From positions 1 through 30,749 of the IMG/VR virus record IMGVR_UViG_3300031601_000018: 30,749 nucleotides of DNA; one strand, written 5' to 3'. The DNA comes from a virus. Below the pieces are notes generated by a model. The model made no database searches. It saw only the letters and a list, made by a program, of their open reading frames with translations, and was not told where the DNA came from. The translations under genes were made by a program, and so were the position numbers. This document shows, piece by piece, positions 2,818 through 30,749 of the stretch (within the stretch, counting starts at the first letter, position 1; each line of letters begins with the position of its first letter).

Positions 2818-3779
2818 TTACTTGCTTGCTTCTCGGCGTTCGTTCTCGTACAGCTCCTCTACAGACTTAATATACTGTTGTCGGTGCTTGGTTTTCAACC
2901 GCATCACGTCCTCGTGCGTCCAACCGAAACGCTCGCCCAACAGCACTACCCCGTAATGGAGTCCGTTGAGGATATTTCGTTGTACCTCTGCCTCGAAGAA
3001 AAAAAATCGTTTAGGCTCACCTGCCTGAAAACTTCGCGCCCGCATGTGTGTTTCCGCACGACGCGTAACTGCAACCCTGGGAGATGTGCAAGCAGCGTGT
3101 CGGACAAGTATCTCCGATCTGTCGAACGAAGCGCCTTGATCGTAAAGGTGGTGATTTCCAACTCGCCGATGTGCGTGACGCATTGCTCTAGCATTTTCGA
3201 GCTGCCCAACGCCATGTTCTTTTGCGCGAACGGTGCAACTTGCTCTTGGATATACCCAGTCGGGATTCGCAATTCGCCTTTTTTGTGGACCGCTTCGCCT
3301 TGATTCAAGCCACGGACAAGCTCGAACGGGATGACTGGCGGCATGTTCGCCGGCCATTGTTTGATCGGGATGTCCGCCAAATGAATGATCTCCGTCCACT
3401 CTTCATCGCATTCCGCGCAGTAGTAGTCCATTTCCAACGCGTCGATGTCGGGAGAAAGCGCATAGATACCGCGAGCGAGAACATCCCGATCAGGCTGAAA
3501 CATGCGAAGAACCACGTCTTCCGGAAGCAGCGCGTTCGGATTGTCCTTTGCTTCGACCACACCGGGGATTTCCTGAATCGCTCTGCGAAGGAGAATGGTG
3601 AGCGCCTTGCCAGGGTTTCCTTGCACACCCGGAGAGCCCATGTTTTCTTCGTCCAGCCCACACATCTCGTCGATGCGGACTTTTGTGTAACGGGCGCCCT
3701 CTTTTTCAACACCGATCGCAAGCTCAACCCATTCGCTGGCGATTACTTTGGGCGCTTCAATACGAGTAATCTCAGACAT
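2818..3779 (-). CDS. Tail-assembly chaperone, -1 frameshifted long product (GT-like)
   Basis: Predicted fusion made by a -1 slip on the T-run at 2999-3006. The ribosome reads 260 codons of the first frame, then continues from base 3000 for 60 more residues to the stop at 2818, giving about 320 aa. The added tail (GERFGWTHEDVMRLKTKHRQ, then a Glu/Lys-rich helix) has no start codon of its own after the T-run and is short, charged and helical, as in known T-domain extensions. In lambda-type and many contractile phages the long form recruits the tape measure while the short form coats it. Gene position (tube, chaperone, tape measure) agrees. The frames and the slippery site are seen directly; the event itself is inferred from family behaviour. 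Confidence 0.8.
2946..3779 (-). CDS. Tail-assembly chaperone, unshifted short product (G-like)
   Basis: 277-aa product of the zero frame. ATG 3779 has AAGGAG about 6 nt upstream. Layout resembles tail-assembly/baseplate-type chaperones I know from contractile phages. A Val/Arg N-terminal segment is followed by an LLRRAIQEIPG helix (about 65-76), a PDRDVLARGIYALS segment (about 95-108) and a CAEC pair (near 120) followed by IIHLADIPIKQWP. The short form ends 17 codons after the slippery site with a polar, non-conserved tail (SSRQRYNEISS), as expected if it is only the read-through of the unshifted frame. It sits between tail tube and tape measure. The CxxC pair could bind a metal, but only two cysteines are visible. 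Chaperone role is inferred from position, frameshift and family resemblance. Confidence 0.83.
   Translation of the reverse strand: MSEITRIEAPKVIASEWVELAIGVEKEGARYTKVRIDEMCGLDEENMGSPGVQGNPGKALTILLRRAIQEIPGVVEAKDNPNALLPEDVVLRMFQPDRDVLARGIYALSPDIDALEMDYYCAECDEEWTEIIHLADIPIKQWPANMPPVIPFELVRGLNQGEAVHKKGELRIPTGYIQEQVAPFAQKNMALGSSKMLEQCVTHIGELEITTFTIKALRSTDRRYLSDTLLAHLPGLQLRVVRKHTCGREVFRQVSLNDFFSSRQRYNEISSTDSITG
2999..3006 (-). promoter_or_regulatory. Programmed -1 ribosomal frameshift slippery site
   Basis: Eight consecutive T on the minus strand. In the zero frame they are read gaT-TTT-TTT-Tct, so positions 3006-3000 form the X-XXY-YYZ heptamer T-TTT-TTT, which allows both tRNAs to re-pair after a -1 slip. 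The downstream open frame is exactly -1. I see only a weak downstream stem (GAGG/CCTC), so any stimulatory structure is uncertain. Confidence 0.82.
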
Positions 3780-3868
3780 GTTTACTCCTTGTAAATACTA
3801 GCAGCCTACACTTTAGAGCGTGTCCTACTGCGCAGGGCTGCCGTTTCGGTTCTGTTTTAACTGCTTAC

Positions 3869-4372
3869 TTAGCCGCCGGCAATACCCGAATCGTAGACGG
3901 CCAGGCCCGAGTGTGCAAGGACCAGACGTTCCTTGTACACATCACCGCCTAAACCTTCCATATCATCGAACTCTTGCTCCGGCGGGAACGCTTTGCGAAG
4001 AACAAAACACTTGACTCGATTTCCCGCTTTGTCTTTCAGGTAAATCTTGACCTTGTGCTTGTACGACTCGTCGGAACCTCCCGTGGCGCCCATCGTACCG
4101 TCGTCCGTGTTGGCAACCCTCTTCGCATCCTTGACCTGCGCGCGCCAAGTGCGAAAGAAATTGCCGGACGTGCTTGTATCCATACCACGTTCGAGAGTCA
4201 CGTTGTCGTACTTGGTGAGACCCGGGTACTTATCCGCCGTTTCCGGATCGTCACCTTCTCGGTACTCGGAGATGTCATCCGCTTCTTTCAATCCTTTGAC
4301 AGACGAAAAGCCGCCGACCGGACCAAGGCCTTCAACTTCGACATCGTACATAAAGTTCAGAATCTTAGCCAT
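3869..4372 (-). CDS. Tail tube protein, T4 gp19-like
   Basis: Forms the inner tube inside the contractile sheath. 167 aa, a normal tube size. Start ATG 4372 has AGGAGG upstream. The N-terminus (LNFMYDVEVEGLGPVGGFSS) and the mid-part (GLTKYDNVTLERGMDTS) match the T4-gp19/phage T4-like tube family: an Fx-V-x-GL-x-xGF start, a kyxNvtLerG strand, then FxxW (FRTWRAQV). The C-terminal part has VKIYLKDKAGNRV and the short WxxxxxP-like AFPPEQEF. It follows the sheath gene by 15 nt, so both major tail-shaft proteins are probably on one transcript. An 88-nt gap leads to the chaperone. Confident in the family from motif order and neighbours. Confidence 0.93.
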   Translation of the reverse strand: MAKILNFMYDVEVEGLGPVGGFSSVKGLKEADDISEYREGDDPETADKYPGLTKYDNVTLERGMDTSTSGNFFRTWRAQVKDAKRVANTDDGTMGATGGSDESYKHKVKIYLKDKAGNRVKCFVLRKAFPPEQEFDDMEGLGGDVYKERLVLAHSGLAVYDSGIAGG

Positions 4373-4387
4373 TTGCTACCTCCTCGC

Positions 4388-7024
4388 TTACGCGGATCGT
4401 TCAACGGTAACGCCGGTGGTCTTCTTATAGGCCACCCGCCACACAACGTACTCAGACGCTTTGGTGGGAGCTGCGCCAAATTCGCCAATCTGGTAACCCC
4501 CATCAATGTCGTCCTGCGTCATGGTTTCATCGGGAACACCGAGCTTCACATAGAAGGCTTCCGCGTCCGTATCCCCCGCAAGACCGCCAGCCGCGCGCAC
4601 CCGTGAAAGGAAACTGATGAGACGTTCTTTCGACGTATTCCATGCACGTACGTTGTTACCACGGAAAAGCGCCCAGGTGGACTCACGCTTGGCCGTCTGC
4701 TCCAACATGATAAACAGCCGGCAGACATTGGACTGGTAAAAGTCCTTCTGCGTGGAAAGCGATCGCAAGCCCCAGGCGTAGATGCCCGGTTGCTTCGACG
4801 GCGATTTCCGAATGCAGTTGACTCCCGCCGGATTGAGAATATCCTGATCATCGCCATCGCGCTCATACTTGAGCCCGTAAATGCCGCGAAGTTTGCCGAA
4901 ATCTTCCTCGCCCGCGCTGGCTTCCCAAACCTGGGCAGGGTCGCCGGCCTTCGACATTTTATCGACACGCGCCTTGAGGCCAACAATCGCACCGGAAGGT
5001 GGAATGTACTTCATCGGCACTTTGCCTTTGCCGATCGGATCGAGAACCTTGATCATCGGTTCCCACAACTCTCCGAACTCGGTCGCGTAACCGCTGTCAA
5101 TACGGTTGTCGACAACACTTTGCGGATCTTCGGCATCGAGGGCGTCGCCCACGAAGAAAATGTCCGCGCGTGTTTGCATGTAATCGAATGCTGTGGTCAG
5201 CACTATTGCGTTCGCACCCGGCATGCACGCCAAGCCAGCATCCCAAATACTGCGAGCCGCGTACAAGCCGGAATACCCTGCCGAACCGCCAATCCGATCA
5301 ACGTCCGTAAGCCCGTCACGCTCGCTGGTCGCGCCTGTGAGTGCGACTGCGGTTGCCACGGCCACCGGAAATCCGTCCCCGTACAACGCGATCGGGACAG
5401 GGACGATATCGAGGTCTTCCAGTTCGATGTACCCCGAACCTGTGTCCTCATCGTTCACGATCGTTTCGTAGTAGTTGTCCGCATCCGGATTCTGCGAAAG
5501 CTGCGACCATGCCGACTCGACCAGCCTACCATCGAGATAGACCATGATTGTAAATTCGAGACTTGCGACTGTGGTCGTGCCGGCAGCAAACGCATCGCCC
5601 AACGCCGAATCCAAATGGGCGTAAACGTCGAAGAGACCGGTGCCTGCATTGAACGTGCGATCAAGCTGGGTGACGATTCGATTAATCGGAGTGCCATCGT
5701 CGATCACCAGTATCTGACCAACCTGGTACCCGAACGTCGAAGGGATTTTGATCTTGGTGTCGGTGAGCACGCCGCTTACCAAAAGGTCGCTACCTGCGCC
5801 GCGCGATTCCCGCATGGGATCCGCTTTCAGGGTGTAGGACAAATGGTTGCCCAACGTGCCGTAGTACTTGCCCCACACCTTCATCATGTTTGTGCCGACC
5901 GAACCATCCGAGCCTGTTTCGTTTACGCCGGCGGCACTGAAACCCCAATCGACAAACGCAAGGTTCCCAGCAAACACGCCGGTATCCGTGAAGGTGATTT
6001 CGTAAACCGCGCCTGCAAGGGCGGTGTAGAAATTCACACGCAGCGGAGTGCGATTGGCGTTCACCAAAATGGTGCCGGCGGACTCAGCTTCGACCAACGC
6101 TTTGATCTCGGCAATCGTAACACTCATGTTGTTAGCGACGTTGCTGCCTGGCGTAACCGCACCACGCAAGCCGTCCACGCCGAGAGTCCAACCAAAAGCC
6201 GTTGTAAGCCCGACCGTGGCGCCCGGAAGTATCCGAATGTACGAAGCAGTGCCGCCAATGTCGTGCGTCAAGTACATGAAGTTGGTGCCAAGATCGTGTC
6301 GCGCCTCAAGCAGATCGACATTCTGGTTGATCATATCAACCACTTCTGTTGCGGTGTAGGTTGTGCCGCCACCGCCACCCGGGAAATCGACCGTGTAGAC
6401 TTGGCCGTTTTCCGCAGTCTGGATATCGAATGTCCAGGTTTCGCCGATGGGAACAGTGAGCGTCACCAACGGCGGGATCGGAAGCACGCCCGTTGCCAAT
6501 TCTTCCTGGTACGCGATGATATCCGTGGTCACATCGGTCGGACCGACCGCGTCGGTGTAAACCAACTGCAACTGCTGCAATCCCGGTTCCATCGGCCAAC
6601 CGCCGAGATACGTGGCCGCAGCGGCCGTGCCCGCCATGATCGCGGGGGCGTCGGCACCTGCGATAGAAAGGTGGCTAGCAGATGCCCGGGTAGCGTCGAC
6701 CGCATCTTTGATTTGCACGTCAGTCATCTTTGCCAAACGGACCAGATAGACAACGCCTGTTTTGGCTTGAAGCTTGGCCTGAATGAAGAATTGCTCGACT
6801 TCGTACATCCCGTAATTGGGAGCACCGCCGGTCTCGTCTTCCAGATACCCGCCAAAATCCACAAAGGCGGAATCGAAACTACGAAACTTCGTGGGTTCAT
6901 TGATCGGACCCCAACCGAACGTGCTGTAAATAATCGCTGTCGATGTATCCACAGCCTCGACCGCACCGCTTCCCGCCTGCGCAATACGTTCGGTGTATGC
7001 GTCAGGGTGTTGGTAGCTTGCCAT
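4388..7024 (-). CDS. Contractile tail sheath protein, enlarged (878 aa)
   Basis: Major contractile shaft protein. ATG 7024 follows AAGGAGG. The C-terminal 300 residues carry the conserved sheath core: IPPSGAIVGLKARVD, then INPAGVNCIRK-like DILNPAGVN, then the SLSTQKDFYQSNVCRLFIML and WALFRGNN segments used in sheath-sheath strand exchange. The N-terminus (SYQHPDAYTERI, then a TAIIYSTFGWGPIN loop) is also typical. Known sheaths are mostly about 380-660 aa; here residues about 115-600 hold beta-rich, Gly/Thr-rich insertions (for example ETWTFDIQTAENGQVYTVDF), probably surface domains. Its own promoter candidate lies upstream at 7115-7144. Start, end and family are clear; the function of the insert is not. 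Confidence 0.95.
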   Translation of the reverse strand: MASYQHPDAYTERIAQAGSGAVEAVDTSTAIIYSTFGWGPINEPTKFRSFDSAFVDFGGYLEDETGGAPNYGMYEVEQFFIQAKLQAKTGVVYLVRLAKMTDVQIKDAVDATRASASHLSIAGADAPAIMAGTAAAATYLGGWPMEPGLQQLQLVYTDAVGPTDVTTDIIAYQEELATGVLPIPPLVTLTVPIGETWTFDIQTAENGQVYTVDFPGGGGGTTYTATEVVDMINQNVDLLEARHDLGTNFMYLTHDIGGTASYIRILPGATVGLTTAFGWTLGVDGLRGAVTPGSNVANNMSVTIAEIKALVEAESAGTILVNANRTPLRVNFYTALAGAVYEITFTDTGVFAGNLAFVDWGFSAAGVNETGSDGSVGTNMMKVWGKYYGTLGNHLSYTLKADPMRESRGAGSDLLVSGVLTDTKIKIPSTFGYQVGQILVIDDGTPINRIVTQLDRTFNAGTGLFDVYAHLDSALGDAFAAGTTTVASLEFTIMVYLDGRLVESAWSQLSQNPDADNYYETIVNDEDTGSGYIELEDLDIVPVPIALYGDGFPVAVATAVALTGATSERDGLTDVDRIGGSAGYSGLYAARSIWDAGLACMPGANAIVLTTAFDYMQTRADIFFVGDALDAEDPQSVVDNRIDSGYATEFGELWEPMIKVLDPIGKGKVPMKYIPPSGAIVGLKARVDKMSKAGDPAQVWEASAGEEDFGKLRGIYGLKYERDGDDQDILNPAGVNCIRKSPSKQPGIYAWGLRSLSTQKDFYQSNVCRLFIMLEQTAKRESTWALFRGNNVRAWNTSKERLISFLSRVRAAGGLAGDTDAEAFYVKLGVPDETMTQDDIDGGYQIGEFGAAPTKASEYVVWRVAYKKTTGVTVERSA

Positions 7025-10285: not shown

Positions 10286-11242
10286 TTAGGTGGTTTCGCC
10301 GAGCACCACACACTCATCGTGCAGCATGCCGGCACCCATAATCGTATACCACGCCAGGCCATGTTTACGGCCGTAGTCCATGACACCGTTGTCCCGAAGC
10401 TGGACCGGCAGCGCTGTCGCATGCCCGTAACCGCCCTCGCCCAAGAAGGCGCAACGATACACATCCTTGGCGTCGGAACTGGCACCCACCATCGTCGCAT
10501 CGTAGCCGACCGAAGCCGCCGCAGCCGCACCGTTACGTTGGTTGTTGGTGCTGATGAAAACCACGTCCTGCCAGCGACCCAGCTCGCCGTTGAACAACGC
10601 GCGGGTGTTGGCGTAGCTGTTGGCCGCAACCCACTCGGGATCTTTCGACAAGCCCGAAGCCTGATGCGGATGACAGAAGCAAACGTAGAAGTCCGCGTTG
10701 AACTTCGGCGCATCGTTGGTTTGCAGAATCTCGACAGCCCGACGAATCAAAGGAACGTCGAACAGATCATCCACGGTCAGCAAGTTCCGAAGAGCTCGCT
10801 CACCCGCGTAGATCAGATTCGTGCCGCTGTCGACCACGTCCCGCAGTGTGCGGTCCAAAATCTTCGCGTAGTTGCGGCCGAGCAACGTCGCGGCTTCTTC
10901 CAGTTGGTCGTCGCGGGCCAGCTGGAGCAGCTTTTCGCGGATGCCGATCGCGTTACCGAACTCGGTGACGGTGATCGAATACCGCGATGCAGCCAGATGC
11001 TGCTCGGTCATGTCCTTGTCTTCTTGCAACTCGCCGCCGCCATCGATGTCCGCATACTGCGTAAAGATGACGTTTTGCCCCGGCTCCACACCAAGCTCGG
11101 TTTTCTTTACCGCGAACTCTTCGTAGCGCATGATGGGCAACGCCGCGTGCTCGATGTCCAGAGAATAGACGTCCAAGATAGCCTGCGGCAATGCAACAAC
11201 AGCACCCGCAGTCGAGACGCCAGCGTAAGTGCTACCAACCAT
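10286..11242 (-). CDS. Major capsid protein, N4-gp56 family
   Basis: Builds the capsid shell (HK97 fold). 318 aa; ATG 11242 has AAGGAG upstream. Matches the N4-gp56 family along its length: LPIMRYEEFAVKKTELGVEP, then GQNVIFTQYADIDGGGEL, a MTEQHLAASRYSITVTEFGN segment (sxsqvsitVtEyGnai), LLGRNYAKILDRTLRDVV, and a late VVFISTNNQR strand. Downstream of the scaffold and upstream of the neck genes, the usual order. No protease gene is seen and the N-terminus is short, so processing is not expected. Strong call. Confidence 0.95.
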   Translation of the reverse strand: MVGSTYAGVSTAGAVVALPQAILDVYSLDIEHAALPIMRYEEFAVKKTELGVEPGQNVIFTQYADIDGGGELQEDKDMTEQHLAASRYSITVTEFGNAIGIREKLLQLARDDQLEEAATLLGRNYAKILDRTLRDVVDSGTNLIYAGERALRNLLTVDDLFDVPLIRRAVEILQTNDAPKFNADFYVCFCHPHQASGLSKDPEWVAANSYANTRALFNGELGRWQDVVFISTNNQRNGAAAAASVGYDATMVGASSDAKDVYRCAFLGEGGYGHATALPVQLRDNGVMDYGRKHGLAWYTIMGAGMLHDECVVLGETT

Positions 11243-11287: not shown

Positions 11288-12097
11288 TTACCGTTCGCCT
11301 ATCCGCAGTTTAGCCGCTGCCAGTAACTCCGCCTTTCGTTCGGCGTAAGCCCGGGGGTCTCTCTCGCGGACCAGACTGGCCCGATCTTTCGTGTTTAACG
11401 GTAGCGTGTTTGCGAACCCTTCGGGGCCGGAAGACGGCGACAAGGGTTCCGGAACATTCACGCCCAGCTGTTTCTTCACTTCCGCCTCTGCCGCAGCGAT
11501 AATTGCCTCTTGTTTCGCTTTGGCAACGACGGTTGCTGCGTCAAGCTCCGCCTCACTTGAACCCATAACCAGGTCTGCTGTGTGCGAAATACCGTGATCC
11601 CGCAACAGTTTTTCCCGATAGGTGTCCAACTCTTGGGTACGAATGCGAAGGGTTGCTTCTTCGGCAACCGCGTTCATCGTCTGCTGAGTCTGATCGGTCT
11701 TCTGTTCGGCGACGCGTACTTGTTGCCTCAATTCCTCAATCTCGGTAGCAGTCGTGTCCCCGATAACCGGGGCCGCGGGTACGGGCGCAGGCGCCTTTTC
11801 GGCAATGGCGACACGCGCAGAAAGCTCATCTTTCTCCTGCGCAAGCGCGGCCTTTTCAGCTTGCAATGCAGAAATCATGCTCTGATGTTTGCTTTTCTCG
11901 TCGGCGCGAATCTTGTTCAACAGAGCATCCCCAACCAAGTCAGCCTTTGGCGTTGTGGCAACTTGCGGGGGTGTGATCGGAGGTACAGGCGCTGCAACCG
12001 GAGGAACCGGAGCAACCACGGGTGGGGTTTGTTCTTTGATTTGTTCTGTGTTGGGAGGGGTCCCGGGCGTAACGGGTATCTGATCGGTGCCAGTCAT
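11288..12097 (-). CDS. Capsid scaffolding protein
   Basis: 269 aa; ATG 12097 has AGGAG upstream. Internal scaffold on which capsid subunits assemble. Residues about 7-50 are Pro/Val-rich (VAPVPPVAAPVPPITPP), probably disordered. Residues about 60-160 are a long heptad-like coiled coil (ALQAEKAALAQEKDELSARV, then IEELRQQVRVAEQKTDQTQQ). Residues 185-225 are a second Ala-rich helix. The C-terminus (YAERKAELLAAAKLRI) is a basic helix of the kind that contacts capsid subunits. Located directly before the capsid gene. The function is inferred from this organisation, which is typical of scaffolds in N4-gp56 phages. Confidence 0.85.
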   Translation of the reverse strand: MTGTDQIPVTPGTPPNTEQIKEQTPPVVAPVPPVAAPVPPITPPQVATTPKADLVGDALLNKIRADEKSKHQSMISALQAEKAALAQEKDELSARVAIAEKAPAPVPAAPVIGDTTATEIEELRQQVRVAEQKTDQTQQTMNAVAEEATLRIRTQELDTYREKLLRDHGISHTADLVMGSSEAELDAATVVAKAKQEAIIAAAEAEVKKQLGVNVPEPLSPSSGPEGFANTLPLNTKDRASLVRERDPRAYAERKAELLAAAKLRIGER

Positions 12098-12619: not shown

Positions 12620-12759
12620 AAATCTTCGTCCTCGTCTTCGGAAGTTCCCAGTTCCGGCAAAGTCTCCCATTCGACAACGGGGCCCACATATCGAGTTGTA
12701 TCGAAAAAGTCTTGCATGATCTGCGTTTTTTTCAACATTTCCTGATCGGCGTCTAGCAT
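12616..12759 (-). CDS. Very small acidic protein, 47 aa
   Basis: ATG 12759 shares a base with the TAA of the topoisomerase-fusion gene (TAATG) and its TGA overlaps the next ATG (ATGA); both junctions indicate a translationally coupled gene. The product begins with a short helix (LDADQEMLKKTQIMQDFF) and ends in an acidic tail (SEDEDEDL). No family recognised. Too short for routine gene calling but well supported by the tight overlaps. Confidence 0.65.
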   Translation of the reverse strand: MLDADQEMLKKTQIMQDFFDTTRYVGPVVEWETLPELGTSEDEDEDL

Positions 12760-15542
12760 TACGGAAGCCCTTTAATTTTACGCAGTAACGCTTGCTGTTC
12801 TTCCCAGCGGCTCCAAACCGCAGGATCTATGTAACTGCCCTTGGCAACAGCCGGGGTATTGCCCAAATGGCTCGCCACCGATTCGACCACTTCCTTTTGC
12901 ACAGTCGCAAACTCTGCTGCCGTGGTTGGAATAGGCCGCGCAGCGACTTCTTCCAGAGCTCTCGCTGTGCCATTCCAAGTGCGAAAATCTTTGACCTTAA
13001 AATCGCCGGCTATCTTTTTCACATAGCGACGAAGCCTGGTAGATGCAGTGTCGAATAACGCGCCGCCTTTGGCAACCCGAGGACGAAGAAGCTTTGCTAA
13101 TTCCGCGTCGTCCAAGACCTTGTGAATCTTGACACCCTTCTTACCTATGAAATTAAATTCAAGCCGGCTGCCGGAAATCTTGACATGCTCCGCTTGCAAT
13201 GTGGAGGCACCGTACGCCTGGGTCGTAGCGCCGGTCTCCGCCATACTGCCAGGTCGGAAGCCTGTTCGGTCGATAAGCCGCAGAATAACCGCCTCTTCAT
13301 CTCCTGCTTCGATACCTGCGGCAATCTGCTTGCGAATGTCGGGGAGCTTCTTATCGAAGGCGCGCAGCCGTGCGAACTTCTCGGCCGCTTTTTCTTCCGT
13401 GTGCATAGAACTGTACAGGTATTGCTTCCTGCCTTTAACGTCGAAACCGACAGCTTGCAAACCCGAATTAGGATCAGGGCTGAGACGTACATCACGCCAA
13501 GCAGGGGGGACACGCAACTCTTTTATGCGAGCTGCCGCCTGCTTACTGGCAACCTTTCCTTTACCTGATCGCCATACCTTGTCCTCACCCATCGTAAGGG
13601 CATCGTCAGAAAGATCAGCAGCCCTTGCTCGCGTCTGTGATACTGCTGTTTTCTTGTACGCAGCAACTCTGCTTTTCGCAGATGTCACGAGCTTCGCTCT
13701 AGTAGCCTTTGCCGCTGATGCGCGAACGGAAGTTTTCGTTGCGGCCTTGGTCATTTGACCGGTACTGGTTGGGACGGCCTTTGTCCCGATATCTTTCCAC
13801 GCAGCACTGGCTTTCTTTTCCAAATTTTTCAACAGTGATAACATCTTGCGTTCATCTGCTGCCGTCTTCATTTCATGGTACCTGTAACCAAAATCATCTG
13901 CCTCGTCGAAGGCCTGGGCAAACCCATTGTACTGCTTCAAGGCGTAACGTCTGACCGTTTTCTTGTCCAAGCCGCGGGTGTAGCGCAAAAGTATGGCTTC
14001 CATCCGATCGCCGCCGGTAGATGCTTTCAACAAGTCGGTTGCTACTGTTTCCACCGACTGTTTGCCTGGCATGCCTTTCACAACTTTTTGGAAAAACTTC
14101 ACTTCTTTATCGTACGCACCGCCGTAAATTTTGAAACCTTTAACTCCCCGAAAAACGTCGCGCGTCATACTTCTCGCTAAGGACTCAACAACGCCTTCTT
14201 CCCAGTACAGGAAATTGTGTAAAAACGGGTTCCCGGCGGCTTTACTGACACTGTGCAGACCTTCGTGAATGTACGCCCCTACAACGGATTCGCCATAATC
14301 GACCGCAGCCACAGCATCGTCAAACAAGTACATCAAGTCTTCTGATAACTGCGGATTAATAAAAACTTCCTTCGTGGTCGGCACATACATCCCGTCAATA
14401 CTTCCAGCTCGGCGACCCACTGCCTTTTTCCAATCTTTAGCGTTGCCGAATGTTCGATATTTGGCTGTAACCTTAGAACCAGTCTGCTCATGAATCGCTT
14501 TTTTGACGAACTTCACCAAATCTTCTTCGTCCGCTAATTGTTCTGTGTTGAGCGGAGTCAGTTGCCCAGAAACGCGCGAGCCTCGCGCACTAGCAACTCG
14601 CGATCTCGCAGTACTTTGCGCACGCTTCAAAAACTCTACTGGGCTATGAGACAAACCTGCCCGCCGTGACAGAATGCCCAAATTACTTATTCGCGTGCTT
14701 GCAATTTGCTCCATCTCTTTTCGCACGGCTGCGGTGCGTTCTGCTATTTTCGGCGCTGCCAGTCTGCCCGAAGCGCGCTTAGAGGCGCCCACCGGCTCCG
14801 CCTGACACCCGCACCAGGGATGCGGGTGACTGGGTAATGAATCAATGTGGTAGACACCTTCTTCTTCGTCGACCGCAATTCCCAAACGCGCCAATATTCG
14901 CAACTGTTCAGGATGTCGTGTCAGTGCGTACCGCTCGCATATTTCATCCCCGCCATACCACGGGTGGTTGAAGCCCAATACCCAACGTAGTGCGAGAACG
15001 CCGGCGTCTGCGTACACCCGCTTCTGCTGCTCTTTGTCTACCACCCCCATCGCATTCGACGCACTCATTTTCCAATAGTTGCGAATCTGCGAAAGCTCTT
15101 TCTCATAGGCGGCTGGATTTTTGCTGAGTAATGCGGATCGAAGACGGCGCTCAGCCAACCGCGTTCTCGAAGCGGCAAGCTGTTGAATTGATTGCTTGGC
15201 TTTTGCACCTTTTCGCAAGTAACGCGGATCCCGCAATAACGCCTTTGCGTTTACCTTGGCGCCTATAAAACCTTTTTTCCCGAGCTGTTGCTGGCGCAAA
15301 GTTGCAATCGCGTCCGCCCGATTATCCAGGCTAACCAAAAGCTGTTTTTTCATCTTGGAAAGGGACGCTTTTATTTTCTTGGTGGACGCGCCAAATTTCA
15401 GCTTGGAAAGGCTACCGTCAACCTCTCCGCCAAACCCGACAAGGCTAGACACCTTCGCTCGCATAATTGCTTCACGAGCATTACCGCGGAGTTTTAGAAA
15501 CTTCGCGTAAAGCGGGCCTTCGCCTTTTACCGGACTGGGCAT
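12759..15542 (-). CDS. Minor head protein fused to HEGLH peptidase-like and type IB topoisomerase domains
   Basis: 927 aa, ATG 15542 eight nt after the portal stop with AAGG upstream. It occupies the slot of the Mu gpF/SPP1 gp7 minor head protein. Residues about 1-250 are helical and basic and end with W..D..C (200-202) and HPHPWCGC (239-246), the Cys/His-rich end of that family. Residues about 385-465 contain HEGLH (426-430) and WEEGVVE (447-453), a zinc-peptidase-like HExxH plus a downstream glutamate. Residues about 650-915 match bacterial and poxvirus-type topoisomerase IB: RVPPAWRDV (677), GRKQYLY, the active-site Arg763 (TGFRPGS), Lys801 (FIGKKG), Arg854 (KDFRTWNGT), Asn895 and Tyr904 (LGNTPAVAKGSY). 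Residues 595-645 are an Ala/Lys/Thr linker. Type IB enzymes nick and relax DNA through the tyrosine. Topoisomerase call strong; peptidase and minor-head calls moderate. Probably carried in the virion, by inference. Confidence 0.85.
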   Translation of the reverse strand: MPSPVKGEGPLYAKFLKLRGNAREAIMRAKVSSLVGFGGEVDGSLSKLKFGASTKKIKASLSKMKKQLLVSLDNRADAIATLRQQQLGKKGFIGAKVNAKALLRDPRYLRKGAKAKQSIQQLAASRTRLAERRLRSALLSKNPAAYEKELSQIRNYWKMSASNAMGVVDKEQQKRVYADAGVLALRWVLGFNHPWYGGDEICERYALTRHPEQLRILARLGIAVDEEEGVYHIDSLPSHPHPWCGCQAEPVGASKRASGRLAAPKIAERTAAVRKEMEQIASTRISNLGILSRRAGLSHSPVEFLKRAQSTARSRVASARGSRVSGQLTPLNTEQLADEEDLVKFVKKAIHEQTGSKVTAKYRTFGNAKDWKKAVGRRAGSIDGMYVPTTKEVFINPQLSEDLMYLFDDAVAAVDYGESVVGAYIHEGLHSVSKAAGNPFLHNFLYWEEGVVESLARSMTRDVFRGVKGFKIYGGAYDKEVKFFQKVVKGMPGKQSVETVATDLLKASTGGDRMEAILLRYTRGLDKKTVRRYALKQYNGFAQAFDEADDFGYRYHEMKTAADERKMLSLLKNLEKKASAAWKDIGTKAVPTSTGQMTKAATKTSVRASAAKATRAKLVTSAKSRVAAYKKTAVSQTRARAADLSDDALTMGEDKVWRSGKGKVASKQAAARIKELRVPPAWRDVRLSPDPNSGLQAVGFDVKGRKQYLYSSMHTEEKAAEKFARLRAFDKKLPDIRKQIAAGIEAGDEEAVILRLIDRTGFRPGSMAETGATTQAYGASTLQAEHVKISGSRLEFNFIGKKGVKIHKVLDDAELAKLLRPRVAKGGALFDTASTRLRRYVKKIAGDFKVKDFRTWNGTARALEEVAARPIPTTAAEFATVQKEVVESVASHLGNTPAVAKGSYIDPAVWSRWEEQQALLRKIKGLP

Positions 15543-15550
15543 CTGCTACC

Positions 15551-17107
15551 TTACGCGCCGCTTGTGGGCGGTGTGGCTTTCGCGCTCACGATTTCGCCTT
15601 GAACTACAGGGTTTGGCTGATTCGGACTTGGGTTTCCGCTCGGCTCTTCTTCTTCGTAACCCAAGGTGCCTGCGTTCTCCAATTGCGCGTCGATGATGCG
15701 CTCTTCCAAAGCGTCGTTGACGATTCGCTCCGCGTCTTGATCGCCGACGCCCATATCAACCAGTACCCGTTTCTTCGTGGTGAGGCCAAGACCCAGCTTC
15801 TTTTCGGCGTTCGCTAATTCCATCGCCTCGTCCCTGGGGAACGGTGTGGGGAAGCTGACTTTTGTGCGATAGAGCTTGTTGCGTGCTTCGACAGGCGTGG
15901 CGGTTCGCAACGCAGAAAACTTCTTACTGAACGCTGGATCTTTCAATTCCAGAATCTTGAGTATCATCCGGTTGACGGATTTCAAGCCCGCACCATATAG
16001 CAGGGCTTTTAATTTTCTTCGTGTGGTCATGGGAAGGTACTGGATCGCAAGCGCCGCCGCTGACGTGTTGCTGATCGCCTGTTCTTTCCCAAGCGCGTTA
16101 GGCGGGATTCCCACCATCTCGAACATCGCATTTTTAATATTCATGAAGTACGCAAGCGCCGCGTCTAGTTCGCCGCTGAGCGAAAGATTTTCAATACGTG
16201 CGTCAACCGGAGCCGACCAAACACGATCTGCGCCTTGTTCCAATTCGCCAATCGACGCGCCGTAAAGTACTGTGACCGGAGAGCCGTGATAATTGATAAC
16301 CGAAGAAATATCTGTGCCCTTGGCATCCAATTCTTCTTGCAAGTCCACAATATCGACCATATCCGAAAGGCCATAAAACTCCCCGGCGACTGGGAGATTC
16401 GGGATGTGGATGATCGGAATTTCGCCGAGGGGGTTGGGCTTAGTCTCTCGCAGCGTCTTCCCTTCCCAGTATTGAACAAAGTCCTTCGTCCAAACTTCCG
16501 CATCCCATCGGACGCGCGTACGCCGCATACCGAAAAGACGAATGCCGCCCTCATCTGTGTAACGCGGAAAGACGATTGTGAACTTCGTCATTTTCTTTCG
16601 ATCGGCACCGGAAAGACCACCAAACTCAGGAAAGCAATACTGCGGCGGGATAAGTTCCACACGCACAAATGGACCTTCCGCACCTTCCTCATCCCAGGAA
16701 GGGCGAACGAACACATCACCGCTAACCGAACCCATCTGCCCACATTCCATGCCCCAAAGCTCACGCTGATTCTTTTCCCATTGGTCATCGAGCGCGGCTT
16801 TTACAAACTCCCGTTCGGTCTTGTCAGTGTATGGCGTAGCCGGATCTTCGGGAATCGTAATGGCGAACCCTTCTTTCATCAGCCACGCGACAAGCAAATC
16901 AGCTAATGCCCGCGAGTAGTTGACTGAAAGAACCTTCACGTTGGTATTCTGACGCCAATGCTGGCCGTGATACGTGCGCCAGTATGTGAAGTATCTTGTA
17001 ATTCGTTCACGATGCTCGGTCTCTGAGGAGATGACAGCCGCAATGCCCGATAAGTCAAGGTCGCCGCGTAAACGGTTACCGTACGGAGTGTGATCTATGA
17101 CCGGCAT
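15551..17107 (-). CDS. Portal protein, SPP1 gp6-like
   Basis: 518 aa. ATG 17107 has GGAGG 5 nt upstream; an in-frame TTG at 17119 is part of that ribosome site and is rejected. Forms the dodecameric ring at the capsid vertex for DNA entry and exit. Typical features: N-terminal YFTYWRTYHGQHW, a VNYSRALADLLVAWLMKEGF segment, a basic beta wing, GEIPIIHIPNLP, a helix with YGLSDMVDIVDLQEELDAKG (the conserved portal crown/stem pattern) and the GIPPNALG loop. The C-terminus is disordered and Pro-rich. Flanked by terminase and minor head protein in the normal order. Strong call. Confidence 0.94.
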   Translation of the reverse strand: MPVIDHTPYGNRLRGDLDLSGIAAVISSETEHRERITRYFTYWRTYHGQHWRQNTNVKVLSVNYSRALADLLVAWLMKEGFAITIPEDPATPYTDKTEREFVKAALDDQWEKNQRELWGMECGQMGSVSGDVFVRPSWDEEGAEGPFVRVELIPPQYCFPEFGGLSGADRKKMTKFTIVFPRYTDEGGIRLFGMRRTRVRWDAEVWTKDFVQYWEGKTLRETKPNPLGEIPIIHIPNLPVAGEFYGLSDMVDIVDLQEELDAKGTDISSVINYHGSPVTVLYGASIGELEQGADRVWSAPVDARIENLSLSGELDAALAYFMNIKNAMFEMVGIPPNALGKEQAISNTSAAALAIQYLPMTTRRKLKALLYGAGLKSVNRMILKILELKDPAFSKKFSALRTATPVEARNKLYRTKVSFPTPFPRDEAMELANAEKKLGLGLTTKKRVLVDMGVGDQDAERIVNDALEERIIDAQLENAGTLGYEEEEPSGNPSPNQPNPVVQGEIVSAKATPPTSGA

Positions 17108-17128
17108 GTGCTCCTCCAATATTGTAAC

Positions 17129-20100
17129 TTATCGTTGTCCAAAAAGACCGTGGCCGCCAGAACCTGCGTAAAGCCCGTTACGCCCATCGCCACGCCGCAT
17201 CATAAACGGGTTTGTCCTCCCGTCAAATGCGTTGCGGTTTAAGCGTCTTCGATCTTTGTTTACTGCCCAACAAGCCATCATTAGCGAGTCAGGGAAATCG
17301 TCTCGCCCATCTTTTTTATTTGGTTTTTGCACAACCATGTAACGACCACGCCAAGACTTTTCAAGCTGAAACATCTGCCGTACGAATCGGCGTGCGCGCC
17401 CATGCATTGTTTGCTTAGAGGCCGGATACGTGATTCGTCCCGCTTTCCATTCTTGATCGAGCAACGTGTAGCCCAAATGCTTCGACTGGGTAGAGAATAC
17501 GAACGGTATGACGATAATATCTGACACTCTTTCCAATTCCGCTTTGATACGATCGTGAACCGGGTCGCCTTTTCCTGTCGCGTCGACGACTACTTTCATC
17601 AAACCGAACTTGCCGAGAAACTCAAGGATCTGGCCGTATTGCGCTTCGTGGTCGTCGCCCTGAATTTCCAACCAATCCAAAATATGTATCGCATATCGTT
17701 TTTCAGGGCCGTACAAAAATGGGCGGTCCCACCAAACTTTCGCAACTGTGACCACTGTCGAATACTTCTCTTTGCCGATGTCGATTCCCGCAACACAGTC
17801 TGTTCTTTCGCAAGACTGCATCGTCTGCCCACGAATCATAAACGTGCCGCGAGCAACGCCGGCGTCATCCTTCCATTTGAGATTGACCCCGCGTCGCACT
17901 CCGCGTTGTTGAACCTGCGTCAGCGTAAGGAAACGTCCGTAAGAGGCAACCCACTGAACCAAATACTTCAAACGGAATTCGTCGGAATCTGCGCCTAGTC
18001 TGATTTCCTCTTTTTTAAGAAACTTCGCATAACGCGGATTGTACTTAGCCGCAACGTGCGCGTCGTATTCCAAATGATTCGCGTGATACTTTTTGTATTT
18101 CAACGGCACGTTCAAAACAGCGTCCCGCTGCTTATTTCGTTCGCATGCTTCGTAAAATTCGCAACCTATAGGAATCGGTGTGCCGGATTTTACAATTGTT
18201 CCGGCTGTGGCTGCTGCCATCGGATGAATCGACGCCTTGATCTTGGTATCGGACACATCTTGGCAGTTGTGAGACAGAATACCGTCCGCGTAAAAATTAC
18301 CGGTACTCGTCTTGATATCGTAGACCATCTTTAGACGGGGAACTTTTCTGATTGCTACGAATTTCGTCGTGCCCGCTGCAAATCCAGTTTCCGTTTCTTC
18401 TGACATACTTTTGAACAACAGGGGAACGGATTGCTCTTGTGCCTGGGTACAAACCGCGTTCCGCAAATCTGGCACTCGATTTGTTCGCGCAAAGCCTTCC
18501 TCTTTTCCAGAAGCGCTTTGTCGTACTGCATTTTTCTTTCCCGCCGGCAAGCAACGGAGCAACAGGGACTTGAAAGCGCTCTTTTCCGCGGTACGAACTC
18601 TTCCCCACAGACGACGCACCGAACTCTCTGCTCGAAAGTGATCTTGTACTTCATGCTCGGGAAGACGTAATTCGCAATCACTTCCGACAACTTGCATAAC
18701 GTCCTGCGCTTGAATACCAGATACGGCGTATTCCCTCTTTTTTCGGTCGCCAAGCGCGACTCCACACCCCAAGTTTCCAATAACCAAGTCTGAATGATCT
18801 CGACTTCTTCGATTGAAAATCCGTGCGCACTCAACGAGCCTGCGTTTTTGCGCTTTGACAAACTCCCATCGTCCATCCACCACCAAGCCAGCCCTTCGGC
18901 TGTCAAAAGCTGCAATAACTCTTTTCGGATTCTCTTTTTGCCGTCCGGATAAAACAGTCGATAGTACGGCACCAATTCTTTTCTGCATCCGGTTACAACT
19001 CTTGCCCATTCGGACCCGTAACCCGGATTCGCTTGTATCGTGATTTTCTTGGCGCCGTAAATCCTCAACCGTTCCAACTTTTCCTTTACATACTCGATCT
19101 GCTTGCTGGAATGGTTCGTGACGTACCGCGGCGTTTTCGATCCTCTTGCCGGATAATTTAGCGAACCGTCGCCCAACAGCGTTCCCAACAACATCTGATC
19201 CATGCGTAACCTCCAATAATTTGGTCGGTACGCATAAATTATAATATGATTTGTTTAGGTTGTAAAGCTGTTTGGCGGGCACGTAGCCCTGGCCCTCGAC
19301 CCACCATAGATGATTCGCAGTACACTGTTCAACCACACCATTCTCAAACTCCAACTCAAAACACGCTTCAAACGCAGGACGCGAAACCCACCCTAAAACT
19401 TCTGTCCAAACGTCCTTGCCTTGTTCGTGATCGAAAGCGCGAACCTTGCCTTCGTATCTTGAATCCACAATGTCTTTGATAGCCCGATCGCCTTCCGGTG
19501 TCCGGAGCGAACTGCGCGCCCACAAACACTCATCAATGATAATAATGTGGTACGTCCGCGCTTCAATCTTTGTTCCTGGCGCTGCAGAAACGGCATCGAC
19601 AAAAGAACCATTCGGCAAATTCAAATGCTTATTCTTCGGAATAACAATGTCAATTTCAGGATCCGCAAGTACTTCTTTTGCCGCCTGCGATGTAATGCGA
19701 ACCTGCATTCTTCGATAAAGAATACCGATGAGATCGTATGTGGGTCCGAAACAACCAACCCAAACACCATCCTTGAACTTTTCAATTCGAGGATCCGCAG
19801 AAAAAACGCCTGCAAGAATCGGAAGTATGACGATAAGCGCAACCACCACTTGTGCGATCGTCTCCGTTTTTCCCGATTGCCTGGAAAAGAGCGCTGTGAT
19901 TTCTTCTGCGTCTTCGAGCAACACTGACGCAATCAGTCGACGCGCGAAACTCTGCTCGTATTTATGGAGCGGAATGCCTGATTGTGCCTGGGTGTACAAC
20001 AGCAACTTCTCGACCAGCTCGTACACTGTTTTATCTGTGAGCAGTCCGCCTTGGTCTTGATACGCGATTTTGAACTTCTCAGCTTCGAGTGTAGCTTTCC

Positions 20101-20203
20101 CTTGCACATGCGCATACACTTCCTCAGACACTAATTCCATATCTTCGAAAAATTCTTCTCGCTCGACTGTGCCGTCTACTTTTGGGAACTTGCGCCTTGC
20201 CAC
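17129..20203 (-). CDS. Terminase large subunit interrupted by an intein
   Basis: Packages DNA into the capsid: N-terminal ATPase and C-terminal nuclease. 1024 codons including a 421-residue intein (residues 226-646), leaving about 603 aa after splicing, a usual size. Start is GTG 20203 with AAAGGGG upstream. Walker A is SRQSGKT (107-113). Walker B is HIIIIDE (219-225), and the intein sits directly after Glu225, before CQDVSD. Nuclease acidic residues follow: GIDIG (Asp808), VVVDATG (Asp874) and the DGRDDFPDS cluster near 965-972. No small terminase is recognised next to it. A terminator precedes it at 20230-20265. A second gene runs inside it in another frame (see 18355-19203). Without splicing the Walker B/C region would be split, so activity should depend on the intein. 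Confidence 0.95.
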   Translation of the reverse strand: MARRKFPKVDGTVEREEFFEDMELVSEEVYAHVQGKATLEAEKFKIAYQDQGGLLTDKTVYELVEKLLLYTQAQSGIPLHKYEQSFARRLIASVLLEDAEEITALFSRQSGKTETIAQVVVALIVILPILAGVFSADPRIEKFKDGVWVGCFGPTYDLIGILYRRMQVRITSQAAKEVLADPEIDIVIPKNKHLNLPNGSFVDAVSAAPGTKIEARTYHIIIIDECLWARSSLRTPEGDRAIKDIVDSRYEGKVRAFDHEQGKDVWTEVLGWVSRPAFEACFELEFENGVVEQCTANHLWWVEGQGYVPAKQLYNLNKSYYNLCVPTKLLEVTHGSDVVGNAVGRRFAKLSGKRIENAAVRHEPFQQADRVCKGKVGTVEDLRRQENHDTSESGLRVRMGKSCNRMQKRIGAVLSTVLSGRQKENPKRVIAAFDSRRAGLVVDGRWEFVKAQKRRLVECARIFNRRSRDHSDLVIGNLGCGVALGDRKKREYAVSGIQAQDVMQVVGSDCELRLPEHEVQDHFRAESSVRRLWGRVRTAEKSAFKSLLLRCLPAGKKNAVRQSASGKEEGFARTNRVPDLRNAVCTQAQEQSVPLLFKSMSEETETGFAAGTTKFVAIRKVPRLKMVYDIKTSTGNFYADGILSHNCQDVSDTKIKASIHPMAAATAGTIVKSGTPIPIGCEFYEACERNKQRDAVLNVPLKYKKYHANHLEYDAHVAAKYNPRYAKFLKKEEIRLGADSDEFRLKYLVQWVASYGRFLTLTQVQQRGVRRGVNLKWKDDAGVARGTFMIRGQTMQSCERTDCVAGIDIGKEKYSTVVTVAKVWWDRPFLYGPEKRYAIHILDWLEIQGDDHEAQYGQILEFLGKFGLMKVVVDATGKGDPVHDRIKAELERVSDIIVIPFVFSTQSKHLGYTLLDQEWKAGRITYPASKQTMHGRARRFVRQMFQLEKSWRGRYMVVQKPNKKDGRDDFPDSLMMACWAVNKDRRRLNRNAFDGRTNPFMMRRGDGRNGLYAGSGGHGLFGQR
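18355..19203 (-). CDS. LAGLIDADG homing endonuclease nested out of frame in the intein
   Basis: 282 aa, in the +1 frame relative to the terminase-intein. ATG 19203 has a perfect GGAGG six nt upstream and a near-consensus promoter at 19238-19266. Two LAGLIDADG helices: LLGTLLGDGSL (5-15, Asp12) and LAWWWMDDGSL (105-115, Asp111/112), with the RYVTNHSSKQIEYV segment common to this single-chain family. The C-terminus has two near-identical cysteine modules: CVVCGEEFVPR with CCSVAC (Cys196, 199, 214, 215, 219), then CQICGTRFVPR with CCSKVC (Cys244, 247, 262, 263, 267), probable zinc-binding DNA readers. It should cut intein-less terminase genes to spread the element. The stop (TAG 18355) lies 89 nt before the intein end. 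Family clear; separate expression inferred. Confidence 0.92.
   Translation of the reverse strand: MDQMLLGTLLGDGSLNYPARGSKTPRYVTNHSSKQIEYVKEKLERLRIYGAKKITIQANPGYGSEWARVVTGCRKELVPYYRLFYPDGKKRIRKELLQLLTAEGLAWWWMDDGSLSKRKNAGSLSAHGFSIEEVEIIQTWLLETWGVESRLATEKRGNTPYLVFKRRTLCKLSEVIANYVFPSMKYKITFEQRVRCVVCGEEFVPRKRALSSPCCSVACRRERKMQYDKALLEKRKALREQIECQICGTRFVPRHKSNPFPCCSKVCQKKRKLDLQRARRNS
19238..19266 (-). promoter_or_regulatory. Sigma70 promoter for the nested endonuclease
   Basis: Minus strand: TTTACA (19266-19261), exactly 17 nt, then TATAAT (19243-19238). The -10 is perfect and the -35 has one mismatch. It lies 35 nt upstream of ATG 19203 in a locally AT-rich patch inside intein coding sequence (encoding SYYNL in the intein frame). 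With the GGAGG before the start it indicates that the endonuclease is transcribed and translated by itself. Confidence 0.65.
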
Positions 20204-29809: not shown

Positions 29810-30625
29810 TCAGAAATTCATTAACAACACCTCGGTTGTCTTCTTCCGTTTCCCGCCTTTGAGCAACACAGAGCAGTTATGCGAAGCACGGGATACTTGC
29901 CGCCATCCGGAGTACAGCTCTCCCAAGCCCTCGGCGGCGTGGTAGGAAACGATCGCCTTGCCTTGAATCGTTGCAAACGCCTTTGCTAAGCGGTGGTGGT
30001 CGTCTCCACCAAAATCTAGTCGGTACTGGTGCCGACGATCCCGCCCATGCATGAGATACGGCGGATCCGCGTAAAATAACGTATCGGGAGTATCAAGCTT
30101 CTCGACACACCTATGAAAGTCCACGTTCTCGATGGCGACACCCTGCAGCCTCTCTATGACCGCATCCATTCGTGTTGTAATAGCATTCTTCCATACAGTG
30201 GTACTGGTACGGCGGCCGCAAACGCTGGGTTGCTTCCAGTTTCCTGGGGAAAGGTTACGCTCGCTCACACCACACCCGCCGAACGCCTGGCGCGATATTA
30301 CGAGAAACCTCCTTGCACGCTCAATCGGGTCGTCGGTAGCCGGCGCTGAAATGGCCGCTGCAAACTCATCGCGGGCATACGGCGTCAGCCATAACGCCCT
30401 CTTCAATTCCTCACCGTTGTCTCGGGTTACGCGAAAGAAATTGGCGACGTCGCCTTCCAGATCGTTGTAGACCTCGACCAGCGCTCGTTTTTTGGCAAAC
30501 AACACGGACGCTCCGCCACCAAACAGCTCAACGTAAACACGATGTTCAGGAAAGTGGCTAACAACCCATGGTGCGAGCATGCTTTTCCCGCCGTAATACA
30601 CGACGGGCGAAAGAACGCGAATCAT
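29810..30625 (-). CDS. D12-class adenine-N6 DNA methyltransferase (Dam-like)
   Basis: 271 aa. ATG 30625 overlaps the TGA of the upstream frame (ATGA) and the conserved N-terminus starts just after it, so the frame to 30712 is rejected. Uses S-adenosylmethionine to methylate adenine. Motifs: YYGGKSMLAPWV (10-21), VELFGGGASVLF with motif I FGGGAS (35-40), and YADPPY, catalytic motif IV DPPY (187-190). The target-recognition part between 80 and 170 sets the site and is not predictable here. Phage copies usually protect DNA from host restriction or regulate. No restriction enzyme partner is nearby, so it is probably an orphan. Confidence 0.92.
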   Translation of the reverse strand: MIRVLSPVVYYGGKSMLAPWVVSHFPEHRVYVELFGGGASVLFAKKRALVEVYNDLEGDVANFFRVTRDNGEELKRALWLTPYARDEFAAAISAPATDDPIERARRFLVISRQAFGGCGVSERNLSPGNWKQPSVCGRRTSTTVWKNAITTRMDAVIERLQGVAIENVDFHRCVEKLDTPDTLFYADPPYLMHGRDRRHQYRLDFGGDDHHRLAKAFATIQGKAIVSYHAAEGLGELYSGWRQVSRASHNCSVLLKGGKRKKTTEVLLMNF

Positions 30626-30749
30626 CGTAAATCCAATAGTACGGCAAGTACGGTAAGCGCGGTAAGCGTGACAATCGGAAGAATTATGCAGAAAGCCAAC
30701 CTGAGCTCCCATACTGTGCGCTGGAGCTTGGACACCTGGTCATCCAATC
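30622..30749 (-). CDS. C-terminal end of a small membrane protein (cut by window)
   Basis: Open frame from the window edge to TGA 30622, which overlaps the methyltransferase ATG. Visible part: charged helix (LDDQVSKLQRTVWELR) followed by one membrane helix (LAFCIILPIVTLTALTVLAV) and a short LLDLR end. The coupling overlap supports it as a true gene. N-terminus not visible. Confidence 0.65.
   Translation of the reverse strand, partial: LDDQVSKLQRTVWELRLAFCIILPIVTLTALTVLAVLLDLR

Follow-up and report, generated by a model that had tools for sequence, protein, structure and literature searches.

A type IB topoisomerase joined to a head protein in a contractile-tailed phage

The fusion gene and its surroundings

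The window, by which we mean the whole stretch of DNA that was analysed, is a 30.7-kb virus record, and its head and tail genes are collected in Table 1 together with the parts of the fusion protein. In gene direction, terminase, portal and fusion genes come first, then the putative scaffold and the major capsid, and after these the neck/tail completion, tail sheath, tail tube and tape measure genes; the phage is thus contractile-tailed. The original prediction had placed the fusion gene in the slot between portal and capsid genes, and this is where it lies: directly after the portal gene, its start 8 bp past the portal stop codon, and before the putative scaffold and the capsid. The putative scaffold gene has no family match, and the same slot in Streptomyces phage GiJojo is annotated as scaffolding protein. 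Distant relatives of the portal and capsid (31-40% identity) are found in the Streptomyces phages BRock and GiJojo, in an unannotated human-gut phage and in Bacteroides phage BS162P1. The terminase large subunit is unusually long: of its 1024 aa, residues 218-316 give a helicase-like match, and terminase matches set in at 667. Related phages also have ORFs of 905-956 aa in the terminase slot. The rightmost part of the window (29810-30712) holds a DNA methyltransferase gene (phrog_56, 4e-70).

Table 1. Positions of the fusion gene, the parts of its product and the neighbouring genes in the window.
Feature	Position	Strand	Basis or remark
Fusion protein gene (MuF-like minor head + HEXXH-motif linker + TopIB)	12759..15542	-	927 aa
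N-terminal minor-head part, residues 1-262	14757..15542	-	homologous to minor head proteins of related phages
Best-modelled MuF-like core, residues 170-250	14793..15035	-	W..L...H..GG.E.C ... PHP.C.C; pLDDT 77-89
HEGLH, residues 426-430, candidate metallopeptidase motif	14253..14267	-	motif only
WEEGVVE, residues 447-453, candidate third zinc ligand Glu	14184..14204	-	motif only
Type IB topoisomerase (TopIB), residues 663-916	12795..13556	-	Pfam, PDB sequence match, AlphaFold + Foldseek
Predicted nucleophile Tyr904 codon	12831..12833	-	Tyr invariant in 82 viral + 31 bacterial TopIBs
Portal gene (SPP1 gp6 type), directly preceding the fusion gene	15551..17119	-	Pfam 9.1e-16; phrog_64 5.7e-25
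Terminase large subunit gene	17129..20203	-	phrog_2 8.6e-12
Putative scaffold gene	11288..12097	-	position only
Major capsid protein gene	10286..11242	-	phrog_1357 4.7e-52
Tail sheath gene (contractile tail)	4388..7024	-	phrog_23 5.7e-31

The fusion gene is a single unbroken frame on the minus strand, running from an ATG at 15542 to a stop codon at 12759. A search for close homologues of the full protein in viral contigs and 50,697 phage records returned a near-identical contig and distant TopIBs, and nothing else. Given that the contig is metagenomic and that an identical three-part layout was not found, one could suspect an assembly error that joined two genes, or a lost stop codon, yet we regard such an artefact as extremely improbable. 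In fact, the intact 927-aa ORF recurs in a second contig (IMG/VR 3300031645_001262), which shares 99.97% identity with the window across 13.8 kb and may not be an independent sample; base composition is even along the gene, which has no convincing ribosome-binding site with an internal start before the TopIB part; and many other contigs carry MuF-TopIB and portal-TopIB fusions of their own. Almost certainly, then, a genuine TopIB is joined to a head protein.

The three parts of the protein

Both the N-terminal and the catalytic TopIB domains of Pfam are present in the C-terminal part (Top1B_N_bact at residues 663-701, 3.5e-13; Topoisom_I at residues 715-902, 2.2e-24), and phmmer against the PDB aligned residues 669-916 with the Deinococcus TopIB 2f4q (7.9e-38). 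Structure prediction gave the TopIB fold that had been expected: the AlphaFold model of residues 640-927 has a mean pLDDT of 85, and all 22 PDB structures matched by Foldseek with E < 0.001 are topoisomerases IB, again with Deinococcus 2f4q at the top (1.2e-18). The five catalytic residues named beforehand (Arg763, Lys801, Arg854, Asn895 and Tyr904) are all found where they were placed, in the Arg-Lys-Arg-(His/Asn)-Tyr order and with the spacing of the family. The Deinococcus radiodurans enzyme (PDB 2f4q/3m4a) shares the fold, the N-terminal domain and the five catalytic residues with the window protein, and both have Asn where viral and eukaryotic enzymes have His. The variola TopIB (2h7f) is an enzyme of the same type, to which the window model aligns with a TM score of 0.74. 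The poxvirus enzyme (variola/vaccinia) is packaged in the virion and helps early transcription; it is not joined to a structural protein and has His where the window protein has Asn.

The N-terminal part is more elusive. Neither Pfam, PDB nor NCBIfam recognized it directly, it left PF04233 unmatched even with a relaxed cut-off, and the MuF domain (PF04233/TIGR01641) found no match in the window protein or its close relatives. A first hhalign comparison with five MuF proteins aligned 12 columns and no more; against a MuF profile that includes Mu gp30, the alignment was in register and weak (probability 41%, P 2.7e-4). The best fold matches in BFVD include capsid morphogenesis and minor capsid proteins, the best E value (0.008) being below significance. 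In the sequence itself, a signature that may reflect remote similarity to MuF/SPP1 gp7 proteins, E..R..N....G....W...H...C ... P.HP.C.C, is conserved, and an alignment of 15 members retains the pattern W-x-L-x3-H ... E-x-C ... P-x2-(P)HP-x-C-x-C; the Cys/His end to which the original prediction had drawn attention (C202 ... HPHPWCGC) is present and conserved across 15 homologous phage proteins. From the portal-adjacent position, the conserved motif and the weak fold and profile matches, several weak lines taken together, we infer that this part is a divergent MuF-like protein. The minor-head identity proposed for it is upheld to that extent, in a region to which Pfam is blind. What is supported is that a minor head protein encoded between portal and capsid carries a TopIB whose active site is complete.

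Between these two parts, HEGLH and WEEGVVE are both in place, and Glu449, nineteen residues beyond HEGLH, completes the layout of a zinc peptidase. No homologues of the middle part were found, the HEXXH stretch returned nothing from Pfam, PDB or fold searches, and its model falls below pLDDT 50. The motifs are thus as described, but the internal peptidase that they had been taken to indicate, a motif lacking homologue, family and confident fold, is not established. Zincin-like peptidases are frequent in polyvalent proteins, according to the main text of PMC5512222.

Head proteins and their payloads across phages

If the N-terminal part is a head protein, what do its relatives carry? With blastp, it matches proteins at loci L088, L089, L091 and L093, and further contigs were found by searching with the N-domain itself; the family comprises 24 loci. 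Seven contigs have a capsid 54-60% identical to that of the window, and the N-domain is seen in five of them, the remaining two ending before the gene. Most family members are 279-403 aa long when complete or nearly so and have no enzyme. Two members carry one at the C-terminus: the window protein with its TopIB, and a 1207-aa protein (L091:1443-5066, IMGVR_UViG_3300029258_004230) with a SNF2-type helicase (Pfam Helicase_C 4e-15, SNF2 1.7e-11). Since most relatives are without an enzyme and one has a helicase instead, we read the C-terminus as an exchangeable payload. SNF2 helicases and MuF/portal fusions are described among polyvalent proteins in the main text of Iyer et al. 2017 (PMC5512222), and the helicase of L091 recalls their SNF2 domains. 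A more distant relative is a 2136-aa protein with a MuF-like end; this ORF (1-6411 in L185, L186 and L187) encodes at least 2136 aa, with the MuF-like signature C-terminal and no convincing domain in the rest of the tested part. Stand-alone TopIBs of related phages were considered as the source of the fusion and rejected, because no separate TopIB gene was found in 27 related records, many of them fragmentary.

When viral contigs were searched with an alignment of TopIBs, 107 loci were confirmed, of which 80 were kept. A maximum-likelihood tree built from 119 TopIB domains places 82 viral TopIBs, the window's included, in one group (support 100/99) and 31 bacterial chromosomal TopIBs in another (support 96/88). 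The bacterial enzymes are mostly short single proteins, with a median ORF of 373 aa (n=31) as against 674 aa for the viral TopIBs. Within the main viral clade, large extra domains are present in 59 of 82. Many of these are head proteins: Pfam finds Phage_Mu_F in L207, L217 and L235, and weakly in L206; portal PF06381 in L192/L209, L211 and L258, plus 17 of 22 in a further set; portal PF06074 in L218 and L283, PF04860 in L223, and PF05136 in L229 and L232; and the DUF2213 head maturation protease in L239, L261 and L262. With local profiles, 32 of the 82 TopIBs are fused to a recognized portal, MuF or protease domain and another 31 have one within about 6 kb; the other 19 have no head domain recognized by these profiles, Pfam finding one in at least L206 and L218. 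Thus, at least 63 of the 82 have a head gene fused or within 6 kb, and stand-alone viral TopIB genes, too, are adjoined by portal and protease genes. None of the 31 bacterial control loci has a head gene, a weak control since these loci are mostly 3.8 kb each. A scan of GTDB genomes for prophage or chromosomal TopIBs, made with a single short pattern of the viral motif, returned one chromosomal enzyme only and says little. As for the same fusion elsewhere, TopIB does occur on the head proteins of other phages, but the identical three-part layout was found in none. On the tree, the portal label requires at least 5 changes, and the MuF label, which has 4 members, requires 4. With fusion types so scattered, TopIB has evidently spread among phages and been joined to different head proteins several times. 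That dozens of unrelated uncultured phages have head protein-TopIB fusions of their own hints at a topoisomerase being packed together with phage DNA.

In L206 (4804-9330), one 1508-aa protein combines GNAT, TopIB, the anti-CBASS Acb1 and a weak MuF match. The MuF-TopIB fusions of L217 (2-3274) and L235 (3637-6741) apparently contain an intein (Pfam Intein_splicing), and the L230 protein (2866-6777), whose intein-type matches are weak, is possibly another such case. One TopIB protein of the portal-TopIB alignment A6 also matches Rubrerythrin/EncFtn-like ferritin families. The gene next after the TopIB gene in L191 (4588-6408) joins a minor-head PHROG match to a Zeta_toxin-like domain. The 1042-aa protein of L202 (4611-7739) has TopIB at 140-341, a HELTH motif in mid-protein and a terminal HAD-type domain (HAD_SAK_1); its TopIB falls in a separate, distant group.

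The catalytic Arg-Lys-Arg-Asn-Tyr set is identical in all 82 viral TopIBs, where mean column identity is 0.59, and is invariant in the 31 bacterial enzymes as well. Around the first Arg, chromosomal enzymes read ..TLIRVGN.. and the viral clade ..TG(I/F)RPGS... A DNA-binding fold in a head-gene setting might be a non-catalytic, structural leftover that grips DNA at the portal, but DNA binding alone would not require five invariant catalytic residues, and we hold this to be highly improbable.

Possible packaging and action of the topoisomerase

How could a topoisomerase serve a phage from within its head? SPP1 Gp7, a MuF protein of which a capsid has 1-2 copies, binds the portal (PMC5576092), and MuF and portal proteins are supposed to deliver their enzyme domains together with the DNA (main text of PMC5512222). 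To explain our findings, we propose that the MuF-like N-terminal part would hold the fusion protein at the portal, inside the head, so that it would be packaged with the genome. The protein, whole or cut, would then enter the cell along with the DNA, where its TopIB part would relax the supercoils that arise on the incoming genome, under constraint, during its first transcription or replication, at a stage when host topoisomerases cannot yet be brought in. The fusion protein is likely to be present in the virion. We consider a virion-borne TopIB, carried in with the genome and relaxing early supercoils, to be probably the best explanation, and action after ejection to be more probable than action inside the head. 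Presence in the virion, ejection, enzyme activity and the step of action are points that we infer.

The frequent pairing with portals makes action in the head the main rival. The TopIB would be held at the portal, relieve torsion generated by the packaging motor or by ejection, and never enter the cell. Portals from four Pfam families bear a TopIB of this clade at their C-termini, and so do head proteases, all of them parts of the head; its stand-alone copies are head-module genes as well. On a dodecameric portal, as in other phages, a TopIB may remain in the virion, which would favour action in the head. However, most relatives of the window phage are without the enzyme and presumably package their DNA anyway, and the crowding of DNA in a full head would leave scant room for rotation. 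Moreover, Acb1, ART, InPase and NUDIX domains co-fused with TopIB are thought to act in the cell. We therefore find action restricted to the head unlikely.

The co-fused effector domains (ART-PolyVal, 2H/Acb1, InPase, NUDIX and ADP-ribosyltransferase) bear on the matter in two ways. The company of ART-PolyVal, Acb1/2H, InPase and NUDIX would place TopIB among early injected effectors (cf. the main text of PMC5512222), and by analogy the window TopIB would fit functionally with the payloads that phages attach to MuF and portal proteins. The presence of Acb1, 2H, NUDIX and ART-PolyVal, known for counter-defence or host-directed roles, in the same polypeptides also makes such a role conceivable for TopIB: once injected, it would alter the topology of host or phage DNA, blunting defences that load on, loop or sense supercoiled DNA, or disturbing host transcription. 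The patchy distribution and repeated gains are typical of arms-race genes, but no defence system countered by TopIB has been identified and the catalytic core itself is strongly conserved, so that we judge this role a little less likely still than action in the head. Relaxation of the incoming genome remains our preferred reading.

How does the fusion protein compare with known systems? Like the polyvalent proteins, as described in the main text of PMC5512222, it combines a virion structural part with an enzyme domain and a possible zincin-like peptidase and is encoded with head genes; several unrelated domains in a single protein encoded with virion genes, the mark of that class, are found here as a minor-head part and a TopIB, and likewise in TopIB relatives with ART-PolyVal, Acb1 and InPase and in the minor-head relative with SNF2. 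Unlike in the window, no TopIB domain is named in that main text, where 'topoisomerase' occurs only in a reference title. The MuF polymorphic toxins (Jamet et al. 2017, PMC5576092) likewise have a portal-adjacent MuF gene and, at the C-terminus, an enzyme that varies and is believed to reach the cell with the DNA, whereas their payload is a toxin, the paper makes no mention of topoisomerase, and the window's N-terminal part lies outside recognized MuF families. Stand-alone phage TopIBs are known from Bacteroides phage BS162P1 and from jumbo phages (PMC7824862), the jumbo-phage survey reporting only a phage-specific tyrosine-type topoisomerase I gene. BS162P1 is the distant relative of the window phage noted above, but its TopIB has a gene to itself, some 9.6 kb away from that of the portal, and falls outside the head-fused clade. 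As a payload, TopIB goes unnamed in the main texts of PMC5512222, PMC5576092 and a viral NAD/ADPr survey, and no head protein-TopIB fusion was found in the open-access literature, taken without subscription papers, preprints or supplementary tables. The original remark that no such case was described holds for TopIB in the main texts of PMC5512222 and PMC5576092, but enzyme payloads of MuF and portal proteins, zincin peptidases included, had already been described there.

Judged from its sequences, TopIB is a recurrent domain of the MuF/portal payload class. We lean towards the broader view that virion-borne topoisomerases are a widespread, as yet undescribed class among tailed phages, in the form of a distinct viral TopIB clade attached repeatedly to MuF, portal and head-protease proteins. 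A DNA-topology enzyme also joins the list of payloads likely to be delivered by virions. It is hard to follow how a phage genome is coiled while it is packaged, ejected and transcribed for the first time, and little is known of the enzymes in charge; repeated gain by unrelated phages of a TopIB with an intact active site makes the question of torsion testable. If our view is true, a TopIB is stationed at the DNA gate and accompanies the genome. To control topology as the genome enters, or shortly afterwards, would then be a general need, which many phages would meet with a packaged enzyme of their own.
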